Source: Porphyromonadaceae bacterium FC4 (GTDB lineage Bacteria > Bacteroidota > Bacteroidia > Bacteroidales > Porphyromonadaceae). Taken from it: DNA of 64,000 bases. The position numbers and the translations under genes were made by a program. Position 1 is the stretch's first letter. Every line of letters starts with the position of its first letter. The stretch lies in assembly GCA_900120395.1 (NCBI GenBank), contig LT635553.1, forward strand, positions 912,254 through 976,253, in the 5' to 3' direction. Below, piece by piece: positions 33,598 through 46,720 of the stretch. The notes beneath the pieces were generated by a model that did no database searches, was not told where the DNA came from, and saw only the letters and a program-made list of their open reading frames with translations.

Positions 33598-36381
33598 ATG
33601 CCCGATAAACTATACCTACTCGATGCGTATGCCTTGATCTATAGAGGCTATTTCCCTTTTGTAAACAATCCTCGCCTCACATCACAGGGAGATGATACTT
33701 CGGCAGTGGTAGGTTTTCTCAATACTTTTGATGATATACTCAACCGTGCAGGTGCGGCATACGTAGCCGTTGTATTTGATCCTCCTACACCTACGTTTAG
33801 ACACATTCAATATCCGGAGTACAAAGCTCAGCGCGAGCGTACGCCGGAAGCAATCAGCTACGCCGTTCCCTATATACGACAGATCATAGAGGCACGCGGT
33901 GTGAAGATCTTCACCGTAGATGGGTATGAAGCGGATGATATCATTGGCACGATCGCTCATCGTGCGGCAAGTCATCATCCGGACCTGGAGATCTTTATGA
34001 TCACCCCAGACAAAGACTACGGGCAGCTCGTGACGGAGAAGATACATATTCTCAAGCCGGCTAAAGGTGGGCAGTATGATGACCTAGGGCCGAGCGAAGT
34101 GGCAGAGATGCACGGGCTGAAGGATTCAAGCCAAGTAATTGACTACTTGGCACTTATGGGAGATAGCTCGGATAATATACCGGGTATCCCAAAGGTCGGA
34201 AAGAAGACAGCAGCCAATCTGCTCCAAGAGTTTGGCTCTATAGAGGGTATATACGAGCATATCGACGAAGTACCGGGAAAGGTGGTTAAAAACAACTTGA
34301 TCGAATACCAAGCTCAGCTCAAACAGGCACGGGAATTGGTAACTATCGTCAGAGATGCCCCGGTTGATTTCAAGCTGGAAGATATGCTTCCGCTTCCTGC
34401 TGACTACGAGAAGCTGACGGAGCTCTATCAAGAGCTTGAGTTCAACACCAAGCTTCGTAAACTCCAGGAGGAGATGGGTGAGCTGCCAACACCACAACGT
34501 GAACGCTCGCTTTTTGATGAGCCGGTCTTTGCCGGCTCAGATAAGGAGGAGAATAACCCAAATCCAGAAAAAAGAGAGTGCGACTACCAGCTGCTTACTG
34601 AGCGAGAAGGGATCGAGGACCTTGCTAAAAAGCTTATGGCAGCGGAAGCTTTCGCATTTGATACTGAGACAGAGGGACTGAATCCCCTTGAGGATGCCAT
34701 AGTGGGGTTGTCCATAGCTATAAAGCCTCACGAGGCGTGGTACATTCCTCTGTCTCCTATGCATGCTGAAGCGGTAGAGCAGCTGAGACCCTTTCGTGAG
34801 GTTTTTAGGAATAAGAAAATCCTGAAAATAGGTCAGAACTTGAAGTTTGATCTCAAAGTTCTCTCTCGATACAATGTCACTTCGGAGGGTCCATTTTGGG
34901 ATACGATGATCGCTCACTACCTTATCAATCCTGAGCAGAGGCATGGCATGGACTACATTGCTCCGATCTACTTGGGGTTCAAGCCAATGCCGATAGAGGA
35001 GTTGATCGGTCCTAGAGGTAAAAAACAGTTGACCATGGGACAGTTGAGTCCGGAAACGGTACTGCCTTATGCTGCTGAAGATGCGGATGTCACGCTTCAA
35101 CTGTATGAGGTTCTGAAGCCCAAAATAGAGAACGATCAGGCGCTGAAAGAACTGTTCTATAAAGTGGAAATGCCTCTGATGAGAGTACTTCTGGAGATGG
35201 AACTTGAGGGTGTCAAGCTTGATGCTCATCTGCTCAAGAACGCTGTGCAAGAAATGGGTGAAAGCTTGAAAAAACTCGAGCAAGAAATCTACGATAGTGC
35301 CGGTCTCAGCTTCAATATAGGCTCCCCGAAGGAAGTCGGCGAGGTTCTTTTTGATCACCTCAAGCTTGTAGATAAACCGGCAAAAACACCTACCGGACAG
35401 TATAAGACTAATGAAGAGACCCTTGAAAAGATCAGTGACCTTCATCCTGTGGTTAATTTGATCCTTGACTACCGGGGGCAGCGTAAACTACTAAATACCT
35501 ATGTCGAACCCCTGCCAGAATATATTAGCCCTAGTGATGGTCGGATTCATACCACTTATAATCAAACAGTGACAGCCACAGGGCGTCTCTCTAGTTCGGA
35601 TCCAAACCTTCAGAATATCCCCATCCGTAGTTCAGCCGGTCGACAGATTCGTGTCGCTTTTACCGGTCATCACCCTGAGAAAGGTGACCGCTTTGTATCT
35701 GCTGACTACTCTCAAATTGAACTACGTATCATGGCGCATTTGAGTGGTGATGAGAATCTTATTCGAGCTTTTCAAGAAGGTATGGATATCCATGCAGTCA
35801 CAGCGGGGCATATTTATGGTATTCAACCGGAAGATGTATCACCAGAGTACCGTAGGAGAGCTAAGACTGCGAACTTTGGTATCATCTATGGTATTTCTGC
35901 ATTTGGCCTGAGCAGTCGTCTCTCTATATCGCGTAGCGAAGCCAGCAGTCTTATCAATGGCTATTTTGAGTCCTTCCCTGCTGTTAAGGATTATATGAAT
36001 AAGGCTATACGTCAAGCCAGTGACCAGGGATACGTAGAAACACTCATGGGGCGAAGACGCTATCTGCCCAATATCAACTCTAGGAACGCCAATGTCCGAG
36101 GAGGGGCAGAGCGCAATGCTATCAATGCCCCGATTCAGGGCTCTGCCGCTGATATTATCAAACTGGCTATGATCAGAGTACAGCAAAGACTCGAGAAGGA
36201 AAAGCTCCAAGCTAGGATGATCCTGCAGGTTCATGATGAGCTGTGTTTTACTTGTCCTCAAGACGAAACCGACGCTCTAGTCTCACTGATTAGAGAAGAG
36301 ATGGAGGGAGTCATGCCTAAGCTGTCTGTGCCTCTCATCGTAGATGTAGGTGTGGGTAAAAATTGGTTCGAAGCTCATTGA
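33598..36381 (+). CDS. polA: DNA polymerase I
   Basis: PolA fills gaps and removes RNA primers in replication and repair. From ATG 33598 (MPDKLYLLDAYALIYRG) it has 927 residues with all three domains. The 5'-nuclease has VDGYEADDIIGTIA near 110 and LMGDSSDNIPGIPKVGKKTA near 190. The 3'-5' exonuclease has AFDTETEGLNPLE near 350 with Asp and Glu kept, so proofreading looks active. The polymerase has FVSADYSQIELRIMAHLSGD near 698, RRRAKTANFGIIYGISAFGL near 752 and LQVHDELCF near 877. An upstream in-frame TTG (33571) lies within the promoter and is rejected. It is followed 1 bp later by the HhH protein gene. Confidence 0.97.
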   Translation: MPDKLYLLDAYALIYRGYFPFVNNPRLTSQGDDTSAVVGFLNTFDDILNRAGAAYVAVVFDPPTPTFRHIQYPEYKAQRERTPEAISYAVPYIRQIIEARGVKIFTVDGYEADDIIGTIAHRAASHHPDLEIFMITPDKDYGQLVTEKIHILKPAKGGQYDDLGPSEVAEMHGLKDSSQVIDYLALMGDSSDNIPGIPKVGKKTAANLLQEFGSIEGIYEHIDEVPGKVVKNNLIEYQAQLKQARELVTIVRDAPVDFKLEDMLPLPADYEKLTELYQELEFNTKLRKLQEEMGELPTPQRERSLFDEPVFAGSDKEENNPNPEKRECDYQLLTEREGIEDLAKKLMAAEAFAFDTETEGLNPLEDAIVGLSIAIKPHEAWYIPLSPMHAEAVEQLRPFREVFRNKKILKIGQNLKFDLKVLSRYNVTSEGPFWDTMIAHYLINPEQRHGMDYIAPIYLGFKPMPIEELIGPRGKKQLTMGQLSPETVLPYAAEDADVTLQLYEVLKPKIENDQALKELFYKVEMPLMRVLLEMELEGVKLDAHLLKNAVQEMGESLKKLEQEIYDSAGLSFNIGSPKEVGEVLFDHLKLVDKPAKTPTGQYKTNEETLEKISDLHPVVNLILDYRGQRKLLNTYVEPLPEYISPSDGRIHTTYNQTVTATGRLSSSDPNLQNIPIRSSAGRQIRVAFTGHHPEKGDRFVSADYSQIELRIMAHLSGDENLIRAFQEGMDIHAVTAGHIYGIQPEDVSPEYRRRAKTANFGIIYGISAFGLSSRLSISRSEASSLINGYFESFPAVKDYMNKAIRQASDQGYVETLMGRRRYLPNINSRNANVRGGAERNAINAPIQGSAADIIKLAMIRVQQRLEKEKLQARMILQVHDELCFTCPQDETDALVSLIREEMEGVMPKLSVPLIVDVGVGKNWFEAH

Positions 36382-36382
36382 T

Positions 36383-38203
36383 ATGATTAAAAGGCACCTC
36401 GGCATTTTTATTCTACTGGTCTCCTTGGTGCCTTTATCCCTCTATGGACAATCTATACGCCAAATAGAGCTTATCCTGGAGCTTTTGCCCGAGGGTGAAC
36501 AGGATCGACAAATAATAGTAGAACAATTGGAAGACCTAGTCAAATCTCCAATTGACCTAAATTCTGCCTCTGCTGAACAACTTATCTTGTTGCCATTCCT
36601 AGATGACTTCTCCGTTCGGAATATTCTTCTGCTAAGATCGCAAAAAGGAGGTTTTAGGAGTATCTACGAAATCAAAGAAGCACTTCCTGAGCTTCCTGAG
36701 CAGTATCTTGAACTTCTTGAGCCCTTCATTAGGGTAGGGGAGAGTCCCTATACCTATCATAAGCGAACTCGACATGACTTTTTCATCGGCTCTTCTATGC
36801 CTATAAAGAGACAGACTTCGAACTCTTTGGAAGTACGATACGAAGGGAGAAAAGATGGCGTACTTACCTGGCATTTTGCGGGTCAAAAGGATAAGGGGGA
36901 GAGTTGGCTCCCTCTGCGTCATGGTGGGTTTGATTATCTTACCGGAAACCTTTTCTGGAATAAAGAACGATATAGTCTGGTGGTGGGAGACTATCGACTT
37001 ACTACCGCTCATGGACTTTTGCTCGGCATGGGAAATGGTTACTTTTCAGCATTGAAGTTTGGAGGAAACGGTTCCGGAAGATGGGTGGGACAGCTCAAGC
37101 CTCATAGATCTTTTAGAGAAACGGGATTCCTCAGAGGAGTTGCCGTGCACGTACATCCTGAGTCTCCACTTTCTGTGCTTCTGTTCTCTGGCTTTGAGCC
37201 GATCGATGCTCGTCTTGAAGAGAATAGTATTCGTACGTTTTATAGAACCGGTTTTCACCGTACAGAGGCAGAGCAGCGTTACCGCCACACTGCTAGATGT
37301 GAGATGATCGGCGGTAATTTAGCCTACCGTAGCAAAAGTGTAGAGCTTGCCCTTACTACGCTTTTGTATCGATATCGTACCAAGCAGGGTGAAGCACTAT
37401 CACCCTACCGCCTGTACCCTCAGCGTACTCCCTTATGGCAAAATAGCTTGAGCGTTAACTACAAGAGTGGTCCTTTTCAATCTACAGCAGAGCTGGTATT
37501 GGATAAAAAAGACAGGAGTGCGGCTCAGGGTGCAATCATATATCGAGATGAGGCTTTCGGCACTTTGGCTCTACAAGGGCGCTATTATGGTGTTAGCTAT
37601 ATAAGTCCATATGCAGCTCCTGACAGTCATTACTCCTCCACTCGTGGAGAGAGGGGTTTACGTCTAATGTGGGAGGGGGAGGTCGCCTATTGGGTTACAG
37701 GACGTCTGTTTATTGATCGATTTAGGCGTATAGGTCCATCCTCTTCTCCTCCCGGGCACGTTATTTCGGCTCGTATTAATTATTCCAACGATCCTTGGTG
37801 GATTACAGCATCTGCTCAGTATGTTGCTGTGAAAAAAGATGCTCAGCGATTCACAGCTCGTATTCAGGGTGACCGTTCATTTTTCTCATCTTGGTCGTTA
37901 CGAGCAGGGGTCCAAGTCTCAAAGCAAAATCCGGAGCCACTAGGCTATTCCTTTTATTCGCGTTTGCACTATCACAAGGACAACTTCATGGCAGAGGGTG
38001 GGGTGCAATACTATCGTCTGTATGGATCCGTTGTTCGTGGGCAGCTCGGTTACATGCCCTACTTGTACACTCCGTCAATGCTTAGAGGCAGTGGAGTGCA
38101 CTATTTTGCGACGATGCGCTATAAGCTCACACCTGCTTTGCAACTTAATACCCGTATACATCCCTCGTTTCTTGATGCTAGCCTTGTTCTGACACTCCAA
38201 TAA
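36383..38203 (+). CDS. Exported HhH protein with predicted outer-membrane beta-barrel
   Basis: This 606-residue protein starts at ATG 36383 (MIKRHLGIFILLVSLVPLSL), with a signal peptide ending near YGQ. Residues about 45-115 hold helix-hairpin-helix motifs of ComEA type: SPIDLNSASAEQLILLPFLD and then KGGFRSIYEIKEALPEL. The rest alternates hydrophobic and aromatic residues in short strands with polar loops, ending in LNTRIHPSFLDASLVLTLQ, as expected of a beta-barrel. HhH motifs bind DNA without sequence specificity. Such a protein at the cell surface could act in DNA uptake, but this is inference. It probably shares the polA transcript. Confidence 0.65.
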   Translation: MIKRHLGIFILLVSLVPLSLYGQSIRQIELILELLPEGEQDRQIIVEQLEDLVKSPIDLNSASAEQLILLPFLDDFSVRNILLLRSQKGGFRSIYEIKEALPELPEQYLELLEPFIRVGESPYTYHKRTRHDFFIGSSMPIKRQTSNSLEVRYEGRKDGVLTWHFAGQKDKGESWLPLRHGGFDYLTGNLFWNKERYSLVVGDYRLTTAHGLLLGMGNGYFSALKFGGNGSGRWVGQLKPHRSFRETGFLRGVAVHVHPESPLSVLLFSGFEPIDARLEENSIRTFYRTGFHRTEAEQRYRHTARCEMIGGNLAYRSKSVELALTTLLYRYRTKQGEALSPYRLYPQRTPLWQNSLSVNYKSGPFQSTAELVLDKKDRSAAQGAIIYRDEAFGTLALQGRYYGVSYISPYAAPDSHYSSTRGERGLRLMWEGEVAYWVTGRLFIDRFRRIGPSSSPPGHVISARINYSNDPWWITASAQYVAVKKDAQRFTARIQGDRSFFSSWSLRAGVQVSKQNPEPLGYSFYSRLHYHKDNFMAEGGVQYYRLYGSVVRGQLGYMPYLYTPSMLRGSGVHYFATMRYKLTPALQLNTRIHPSFLDASLVLTLQ

Positions 38204-38287
38204 GTGTTGAAAAACGAGATGTAAAGGTTAAAAACTAACAAAACACGAGGAAATATGCCTTTTTATGGGACTAAAGACGGAAAAGTG

Positions 38288-38318
38288 TTGTTCATGTCCA
38301 AAATGATACGTATATTTG
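38288..38318 (+). promoter_or_regulatory. Promoter of a candidate small RNA
   Basis: TTG (38288-38290) lies 20 bases before TATATTTG (38311-38318), a good Bacteroidetes promoter, with no open reading frame downstream before a terminator. Confidence 0.65.
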
Positions 38319-38323
38319 CATTG

Positions 38324-38401
38324 TGGTTTTTTCATAATAGTATTAGATTAAAGGTTAAACAAGAAAGGTTTGGGATGTCGTGAGGCATCCTTTTCTGTTT
38401 T
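38324..38401 (+). ncRNA. Candidate small RNA of about 78 nt
   Basis: It begins about 6 bases past a consensus -7 box. It runs through an AT-rich unstructured stretch (TTTTTTCATAATAGTATTAG, then AAAGGTTAAACAAGAAAGG) and ends in a compact terminator. That terminator is GGATGTC-GTGA-GGCATCC, a 7-bp stem closed by a GNRA tetraloop (38373-38390), followed by TTTTCTGTTTT. There is no start codon with a useful ORF. Promoter plus terminator 80 bases apart in a region between HhH gene and pepC fits an independent sRNA. I recall similar AT-rich leaders in Bacteroidales but cannot name a family. Confidence 0.55.
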
Positions 38402-38491
38402 ATAGGGGGAGGTACTATTATTTGATTGCTCAGCAGTATGGGGGCGGAGTAAACCTCTTATAGGTCAATAACTGTTGGCATGATTAGAAAA

Positions 38492-38529
38492 GTAGCCCGA
38501 GTAGAGTGAAGTCACTCTACTCGGGCTAC
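38492..38529. terminator. Terminator of the cdd-dnaX-pepC operon
   Basis: A perfect 18-bp stem, GTAGCCCGAGTAGAGTGA and its complement, closes a 2-base loop. On the minus strand it is followed by TTTTCTAAT. It lies 44 bp past the pepC stop. Confidence 0.85.
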
Positions 38530-38572
38530 GAAGTTTTGAAAAGGATTTTCGGAGATCTAAATCCTTGGTTAT

Positions 38573-39790
38573 TTAGATGCCGAGCTTAGTGCGGATAGCT
38601 CTTGGGATTGCATCTTTATGAACAACGATGTTCATTGTCTTGCCAGCGACAAATGCTTTTGATGCGTACCAAATTCCGTTATACTTACCGGCGTCTTCTC
38701 CCCAAGAGTTTTTCACCATATAGAAAGGTTTCCCTGTCTGATCATTGGCAAGTCCATATATGAGCATCCCGTGATCGTCCGTGGTAGAGAGGTCGTCAAA
38801 GCCTTTTTGGCGATACTCTTGTGTTACCTTTATTTCGGGAGATCCGGGTGTCCTGATGAGTTGACCTATGGAGACTCTGTTGTTATTACCAGAGCTACCT
38901 ATCCAACGTGCTTGATCTGATCCATGGTCAGAGTTTGCTGCTTCTACATCTACCAATACCGCAAGTCCGTTCCGAGTAAAACCAGCTTCGCTTACGTCTG
39001 ATCCCCATGCAACAGTATATCCATTATCTACTGCGTTGTCGATTACTTCTATGAGCTCCTCAATTGGAAGGTTGTAGGACAACCCATGGCGCCAGTTATC
39101 CGGGATTTCTAGTACAAACTGACTGTAGAAGGGGTGGTGTGAAAAAGAGGTAAGGGATACATAGTTATTGGGATCAAGCTTGAGTGCCTGTGCAAATGTT
39201 GCCGGAGTATAGCTCTTACCCTCGTACGTAAAGCTCTGTGGAGCTTTGCCCAGATAGGCGTCTATGATCCCGTCAAATGCTTCTTCCCAAGCGGAGCTTA
39301 GATGCCCGGCTTTATCCATTTCTTTTACGAGAGCGTCAACAAACCCCTTGGCTATGGCTTCCATCTCTGTGTGCGTGTGACGTTTTGCGCCATAGTTGAG
39401 GCCGATCATTTCCTCCATGGGGACAACACCGTGACTCCCGAGAACATGTAGGACATCTCCGAATGCGCCTCCTTGAGCAAAGTTGAGAAAGCCGTGGTAG
39501 CGGACGAAGTCTCTTGCCTTATCTTTGTAACTCTGGGATACAATATACATGGGAGCTAGGATCACTTCCTTTCCGGTGAGACGGTATGCCTCAGCCTCGA
39601 GAAATCCGATCCCGCTAAAAGACCAGCAGGTACCGGTATTTGCCTGATCCTGTATTGGTGAGATCTTAGTTTCTTTGATGGTGGTAAACTTGTAGCCTTC
39701 CGGCTCTTGACTAGGCTCTTGCGCTAGTGCTGGAACTGCTAAAAAAGCAACTAGAGCACTACTTGCCAGTAGTTGATTTAGTCTTTTCAT
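38573..39790 (-). CDS. pepC: Exported C1-family cysteine peptidase (aminopeptidase C / bleomycin hydrolase type)
   Basis: This 405-residue peptidase has a signal peptide (LLASSALVAFLAVPALAQ), so unlike cytosolic PepC it acts in the periplasm or outside. The catalytic Cys is in PIQDQANTGTCWSFSGIGFL (about Cys54), the His in TTDDHGMLIYGLA (about 340), and the Asn in YMVKNSWGEDAG (about 363). Overall order matches the BleH/PepC group. It likely takes part in peptide breakdown for nutrition, in keeping with dpp4 nearby and with a proteolytic lifestyle. It is the last gene of the cdd-dnaX-pepC run (34-bp gap after dnaX), before a strong terminator. Confidence 0.9.
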   Translation of the reverse strand: MKRLNQLLASSALVAFLAVPALAQEPSQEPEGYKFTTIKETKISPIQDQANTGTCWSFSGIGFLEAEAYRLTGKEVILAPMYIVSQSYKDKARDFVRYHGFLNFAQGGAFGDVLHVLGSHGVVPMEEMIGLNYGAKRHTHTEMEAIAKGFVDALVKEMDKAGHLSSAWEEAFDGIIDAYLGKAPQSFTYEGKSYTPATFAQALKLDPNNYVSLTSFSHHPFYSQFVLEIPDNWRHGLSYNLPIEELIEVIDNAVDNGYTVAWGSDVSEAGFTRNGLAVLVDVEAANSDHGSDQARWIGSSGNNNRVSIGQLIRTPGSPEIKVTQEYRQKGFDDLSTTDDHGMLIYGLANDQTGKPFYMVKNSWGEDAGKYNGIWYASKAFVAGKTMNIVVHKDAIPRAIRTKLGI

Positions 39791-46393: not shown

Positions 46394-46720
46394 ACTTATT
46401 TAGATCGCGTCGGGAAAAAGTGACAAAACTCCGAAATGTAAGGATTTGAGGCTGACCCAAGCTCTGCAATCCGCTGTCACCAGCAAGCTGATGAACCTCA
46501 AAAGAGGTTGCGGCCAGACATCACAAGGATCAAGGATCTCGGAAGTGTAATGTATTGATGAGTTTCCCATTTACCCGACGCGAATAGCAATATGCATTGT
46601 TGTCGTCAGACCTACGCTTAGGTCTCAAAACAAAGTTACGAAAACATTTCATACTTCCAAAGCATTGGTCTTCTCAGGTCTGATGCCGTAGGATTTTTGC
46701 CCTTAGGATGAGGGCGAAAA
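46394..46720. other. Non-coding stretch, no gene recognised
   Basis: About 330 bases of mixed composition without an ORF I can support on either strand. It could be decayed coding DNA, but I found no family match by eye. It ends with a hairpin (46694-46721, ATTTTTGCCCT and AGGGCGAAAAAT) of bidirectional terminator form right against repeat copy 6. Confidence 0.4.

Follow-up and report, generated by a model that had tools for sequence, protein, structure and literature searches.

A probable long-form FopS-type small RNA gene in a Porphyromonas genome and its conserved relatives in neighbouring families

The window, i.e. the whole stretch of DNA analysed here, is 64,000 nucleotides long. In it a plus-strand gene ends at position 38203 and the 3' end of a minus-strand gene lies at 38573, and the interval between them holds, on the plus strand, a promoter, an AT-rich region and a terminator. 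A preliminary description had read this arrangement as a small RNA of ~78 nt that lies between two genes and is part of neither. The intergenic position proved accurate and the small RNA itself is supported by Rfam and by conservation, whereas its start is now placed one base earlier, at G38323, which gives a length of ~79 nt. The features are given below; the copy counts refer to 143 distinct long-form copies picked by the exact seed, from which copies near contig ends and identical 160-nt stretches had been removed.

36350..38203, plus strand: upstream neighbour, a 617-aa protein with a helix-hairpin-helix motif (HHH_3), outside the element
38288..38290, plus strand: -33 element TTG of a Bacteroidota-type promoter, assigned from the sequence; TTG lies within -38 to -32 in 134/143 long-form copies
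38311..38318, plus strand: -7 element TATATTTG; TAnnTTTG stands exactly 4 nt ahead of the first GTG of the RNA in 138/143 long-form copies
38323..38401, plus strand: long-form FopS-family small RNA of ~79 nt, matching RF04319; 5' end placed from the Rfam alignment and the promoter spacing
38323..38349, plus strand: long-form 5' seed, predicted to be single-stranded, GUGGUUUUUUCAUAAUAGUAUUAGAUU; the bases at 38326-38327 and 38335-38337 are inserted when compared with the Rfam FopS consensus
38350..38358, plus strand: second conserved block AAAGGUUAA (consensus of the relatives UAAGGUUAA); nt 28-35 of the RNA are 91-99% conserved per position over the 143 copies
38372..38401, plus strand: Rho-independent terminator with an 8-pair stem, a GUGA (GNRA) loop and a U-rich tail; the stem covaries in the relatives
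38573..39790, minus strand: downstream convergent neighbour, a C1 cysteine peptidase of 405 aa, outside the element

The promoter, TTG-N20-TATATTTG, spans 38288-38318 with a spacer of 20 nt, and its earlier description as a good one holds: the pattern TTG-N20-TANNTTTG occurs four times in the 64 kb window, the mean in 100 shuffles being 0.51, and none of these shuffles reached four. TTG-N20-TATATTTG, or TAnnTTTG, is what we take to be the sigma-ABfr consensus, and the promoter of the small RNA agrees with this canonical type both here and in the relatives counted above. Upstream of the -33 element, between -50 and -39 from the RNA start, the 143 copies share further positions, namely T at -49 in 134 of them and, in about 100 at each position, A at -41 to -39, which could represent an UP-like element or the site of a regulator.

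No coding sequence was found at the locus, which agrees with the earlier claim that the AT-rich region has no ORF. The 42-aa frame at 38255-38383 has no Pfam match and frames beginning inside the small RNA reach at most 27 codons, so that the peptide reading was dropped. Read-through as a 5' untranslated region is likewise unlikely, because the next gene lies on the opposite strand and all 114 of the 114 long-form copies flanked by 1 kb or more are intergenic relative to ORFs of at least 120 aa, with all four neighbour orientations represented (38, 30, 29 and 17 copies). Two further features were observed between the small RNA and the peptidase gene. A 17-pair hairpin with a T-rich tail at window positions 38492-38529 (minus strand) is likely the terminator of the convergent peptidase gene, and a LOOT RNA match of Rfam at 38452-38566 (plus strand) was rejected, its 32.5 bits being below the cut-off of 46.4 and probably driven by the overlapping long hairpin. 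Elsewhere in the window, the Rfam scan reported RF01693 (Bacteroidales-1, a suggested 6S RNA) at 46399-46585 on the minus strand with 61.8 bits.

A search of Rfam, which the preliminary description had proposed, identified the family. The model RF04319 (BTncRNA_FopS) aligns over its full length (1-71 of 71) to 38323-38402 with 52.9 bits and an E-value of 3.9e-7. This match came from an E-value-threshold scan of the intergenic region, while the default Rfam scan of the window was silent here because 52.9 bits is just below the curated cut-off of 56. In the Rfam alignment two insertions are visible, GU behind the first GUG and UAA between UUUUUCA and UAGUAUUAG (2 + 3 bases); thus, both seed blocks, UUUUUCAU and GUAUUAGAUU, are present, with three extra bases between them and two extra after GUG. 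The family cut-off cuts through the long forms, since four of seven named long-form loci scanned at it pass, with 62.8, 59, 57.1 and 56.6 bits, and three (L099, L100 and L141) give no match. In this genome four FopS-like matches were found: a canonical one above the cut-off (69.8 bits), the present copy, and two at 34.8 and 30.2 bits. By eye, the 34.8-bit match (L023) has no visible seed, and the 30.2-bit match (L024, G000:C3:292186-292259) has a degraded seed, lies directly behind a terminator hairpin and lacks a promoter; it is perhaps a decaying copy. Judged by sequence, the genome has two clear FopS copies and two weak matches. Other families fit the locus poorly: GibS (RF04182) scores 22.3 bits against a cut-off of 115, and BTnc231 (RF04180) gives a weak match at 38323-38526 with 23.6 bits against 80.4.

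The terminator with a GNRA-capped stem and a U-rich tail that had been described earlier is indeed found at 38372-38401. It consists of GGGATGTC-GTGA-GGCATCCT at 38372-38391 followed by TTTCTGTTTT, lies ~50 nt past the inferred start, and its fold of -11.3 kcal/mol (z -3.59) was not equalled in stability by any of 200 shuffles. The fold of the whole 78-nt RNA is unremarkable (z -1.68, 15/200 shuffles equally stable), and terminator-like sites are no more frequent than chance in the 3.6 kb around the element, where five were counted and 3.0 ± 1.9 were expected; for these two reasons it is conservation that carries the case. The covariation of the terminator was analysed in 51 of the 143 long-form copies, hand-picked to thin near-duplicates. 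In this alignment 92.0% of the cells are paired and 11 of 12 pairs have changed on both sides, no measure was reached by any of 500 shuffles, and slid versions scored far lower. The loop is GNGA in 51/51 aligned copies, some of which have one extra base behind it, and a GNRA-type loop on a stem of six standard pairs is found in 123 of all 143 copies, the other 20 failing this strict rule. The present copy has a U-G pair in the stem where 48 of the 51 have U-A. By predicted fold and covariation, the element has the architecture of FopS, in which a single-stranded 5' part precedes one Rho-independent terminator.

The AT-rich part, whose conservation had been named earlier as a possible sign of function, is clearly conserved, and no other part of the element is conserved as strongly. 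A DNA search with 38260-38420 found matches in 26 of 61 genomes, its own included, and the FopS covariance model had a match at E ≤ 0.01 in 28 of the 37 relatives, among them every one of the 23 searched genomes of the family of the window. For four of these relatives, 450 nt around the locus are identical to DNA of named organisms: G002, of the genus of the window, to Porphyromonas somerae DSM 23386, G005 to Porphyromonas sp. HMSC065F10, and G016 and G022, of the same family, to P. macacae and P. gulae. On this basis the window belongs to Porphyromonas as the genome collection defines it. Over the order, FopS was found in 88 of 393 genomes drawn, a count made with stricter filters by which weak matches are lost. 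At least 119 stretches of named genomes contain the 27-mer GTGGTTTTTTCATAATAGTATTAGATT without a mismatch. Among the 80 matches listed are Porphyromonas, Parabacteroides, Tannerella/Tannerellaceae, Massilibacteroides, Proteiniphilum, Seramator and Dysgonomonadaceae, the rest being unnamed Bacteroidales, Bacteroidia or Porphyromonadaceae, and none of these 80 is from Bacteroides or Prevotella. When two mismatches were allowed, the 393 genomes yielded 21 sites, spread over 10 genomes and 5 families, 19 of them exact and 2 with one mismatch, and the reversed 27-mer yielded no site. In the 143 copies nt 1-27 are identical because the copies were selected by an exact match; nt 28-35 lie outside the search pattern and are conserved to the degree given above, with the present copy deviating at nt 28. 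The conserved promoter spacing, the seed, the compensated stem and the intergenic placement together are the signature of a free-standing RNA gene. Very probably, the stretch is a real small-RNA gene homologous to FopS which, with its relatives, represents a long-form variant with a re-spaced seed.

Neither neighbour gene of the window was found by tblastn at the loci of 19 relatives (up to 1.5 kb on each side), so their copies sit elsewhere. With regard to phage carriage, no viral contig contained the exact 22-mer core and a distant search returned no phage record. Two P. distasonis records labelled as plasmids match the long form; one of them, L226 (NZ_OY725749.1, 43812-51899), combines four FopS-like places with succinate dehydrogenase genes and may therefore come from a chromosome. 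Tandem pairs of long forms, ~245-270 bp apart, were seen at L007, L013, L014 and L148, an apparent sign of local duplication.

In Bacteroides thetaiotaomicron, according to PMC11697453, the RRM protein RbpB associates with 14 FopS RNAs and binds their 5' part. Pairing of the 5' R1' seed takes place close to the start codon of susC BT_3983 and of other first genes of PULs, FopS-10 stops susC BT_3983 from being translated in vitro and RbpB lifts this block, the verified targets are mostly SusC-like transporters, and bile salts induce the RNAs. The same text describes the FopS RNAs as adjusting the uptake of glycans jointly with RbpB, and reports homologues within Bacteroidaceae and in one phage. 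Among the literature titles and abstract openings listed, none described FopS in Porphyromonas or Parabacteroides, although the Rfam member list may include them; a paper on P. gingivalis RRM proteins mentions FopS once, as a Bacteroides finding (PMC12119571). Compared with FopS of B. thetaiotaomicron as modelled in RF04319 and described in PMC11697453, the present RNA is alike in promoter type, in its single terminator hairpin and similar size, in a single-stranded 5' seed that ends in GUAUUAGAUU and is followed by AAGGUUAA, and in being intergenic (9/14 there) and present in more than one copy per genome. It differs in the two extra bases behind GUG and the three between UUUUUCAU and GUAUUAG, the latter of which shift by 3 nt the block that would pair upstream of the AUG; in copy number, with 2 clear copies as opposed to 12-15 in Bacteroides species; and in the partner, RbpB being present there while no RRM/RbpB protein was found in this genome. 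GibS has the R1 seed in common with FopS per the same source, but has a 142-nt model, a second seed R2 and another promoter, and BTnc231, whose weak match begins at the same base, 38323, is set apart by its low score.

The RNA-binding partner was pursued with RRM_1 (PF00076), which has no match in this genome. Neither this genome nor 11 congeners had a match over the cut-off (0/12 searched genomes of the genus, one of them 53% and one 89% complete), two genus genomes showing sub-threshold matches with E 0.3-0.6; in the sister genus 6 of 11 genomes have the domain. Over the order sample, an RRM match is found in 51 of the 88 FopS-bearing genomes and none in 37, and of the 305 genomes without FopS 206 have a match and 99 do not. 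That FopS depends on RRM proteins across the order was accordingly rejected, there being no association (Fisher p 0.10). In four family groups (f22, f26, f69 and f111) with 4-5 FopS genomes each no RRM match was seen. RNAs of the FopS type are thus maintained in genomes where no RbpB homologue can be detected; a more diverged RNA-binding protein is possible as a partner.

Candidate targets were sought from the seed, whose antisense reads AATCTAATACTATT-ATG-AAAAAACCAC (...ACTATT-ATG-AAAAAACCAC) and appears to resemble a start region generic to exported proteins (AUUAUGAAAAAAC). SusC-type genes above the curated cut-off number 32 in the genome. In one of them, G000:C4:321358-324708, the leader contains TTATGAAAAAACCA, a 14-nt perfect complement to nt 2-15 of the RNA, at -23 to -10 of the start; none of 300 shuffled seeds reached 14 nt in 30 SusC leaders, a test that used all 30 loci, three with uncertain starts. 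The 12-mer ATGAAAAAACCA occurs twice in the genome, at this leader and opposite the RNA itself, but its rarity alone proves little because the reversed control 12-mer occurs once. Among 18 non-FopS loci with the 12-mer, only this gene was recognised as having a SusC leader; in the congener G008 (L241) a 277-aa frame begins with the 12-mer and looks lipoprotein-like by eye. The site is not conserved in two orthologues with 70% and 65% identity, which have 8 and 7 nt of complement, and a P. macacae homologue (42% identical) has 13 nt over an ATG read as the start, 15 nt inside the start chosen by the script. We regard this SusC gene as one candidate target. Just before its start, the candidate site (L078 / L257) overlaps a 5-codon upstream mini-ORF (ATG AAA AAA CCA ATT TAG).

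With folding counted, the site is modest at -7.25 kcal/mol, 12 of 300 shuffled seeds being equally good, and the gene is not among the six best SusC leaders. Start codons were set by eye, for the 27 of 30 loci used in the duplex and folding tests and for all 30 in the test of complement length, and by rule in the orthologue comparison. Over these 27 SusC leaders, the real seed has a mean of -8.56 kcal/mol vs -6.85 for 20 shuffled seeds (best -8.38), and it is also stronger on control genes, -6.88 vs a shuffled average of -5.54 ± 0.76. A crude duplex test did not favour SusC leaders over other genes (p = 0.90). The folding-corrected comparison of SusC with control genes gave p = 0.036, with an observed difference of -1.68 vs -1.32 ± 0.55 for the shuffled seeds. 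Shuffled seeds give nearly the same difference, and SusC leaders as a class are not clearly preferred over other genes.

The gene anatomy, the homology to FopS, the conservation and the terminator structure are shown by the data above. We consider it likely that the locus is a stand-alone gene for a long-form FopS-type regulatory RNA of a Porphyromonas genome, most likely acting as FopS does in B. thetaiotaomicron; transcription, targets and repression by the small RNA we infer as follows. The RNA would start at about G38323 from a housekeeping-type Bacteroidota promoter, expose a single-stranded 5' seed antisense to AATCTAATACTATT-ATG-AAAAAACCAC and end at the GNRA-capped terminator. Its 5' end would pair around the start of mRNAs for outer-membrane proteins (SusC-like and similar), and pairing over the AUG and the lysine codons, or in the leader just ahead, would block ribosome entry. 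As no RbpB-type RRM protein was found in the genome, the RNA would act alone or with another protein.

Three other explanations are compatible with part of these data. The long form might act mainly on other targets, for example mRNAs of lipoproteins or other secreted proteins that start with AUG-AAA-AAA, the SusC match being incidental; the apparently generic start in the seed antisense, the lack of preference for SusC over other genes and the lipoprotein-like frame of the congener point that way. We consider this unlikely but not negligible, as the verified targets in B. thetaiotaomicron are mostly SusC-like transporters (PMC11697453), and the only 12-mer complement in the genome besides the antisense of the RNA precedes a SusC gene. 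The 27-35 near-invariant nt arguably exceed the demand of a single antisense target, and the binding of RbpB to the 5' part of FopS (PMC11697453) would fit a near-invariant segment that is a protein site, by which the RNA would titrate an RNA-binding protein or serve as its ligand, without base pairing. Such a role seems improbable, given that neither this genome nor the 11 congeners have an RRM match over the cut-off and that 37 of the 88 FopS-bearing genomes of the order sample have none. The least credible explanation is a decayed or non-expressed FopS copy: the score under the family cut-off, the U-G stem pair and the off-consensus nt 28 would agree with decay, yet the promoter, the 27-nt seed and the terminator are all intact and typical, and the Rfam alignment shows the five inserted bases that define the long form.

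For the long-form FopS-type RNA taken as a group, a further step is tentative, and we think it somewhat more likely to fail than to hold. The long form may be a distinct FopS-like subfamily of Porphyromonadaceae, Tannerellaceae and Dysgonomonadaceae that governs different surface-protein mRNAs, in Porphyromonas without an RRM-type RNA-binding protein. In this reading the seed would be perfectly antisense to the generic start of an export gene (AUUAUGAAAAAACC), from which a different set of governed surface-protein mRNAs would follow.

These results have several consequences for the study of FopS. The Rfam cut-off for the family hides part of the group. The long form is present in a genus in which no RRM protein was detected in any of the 12 genomes searched, two of them under 90% complete, and this makes the need of FopS-type RNAs for RbpB directly testable. 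Finally, neighbouring families, Porphyromonas included, carry the long form nearly unchanged, which suggests that the FopS circuit is wider than Bacteroidaceae.
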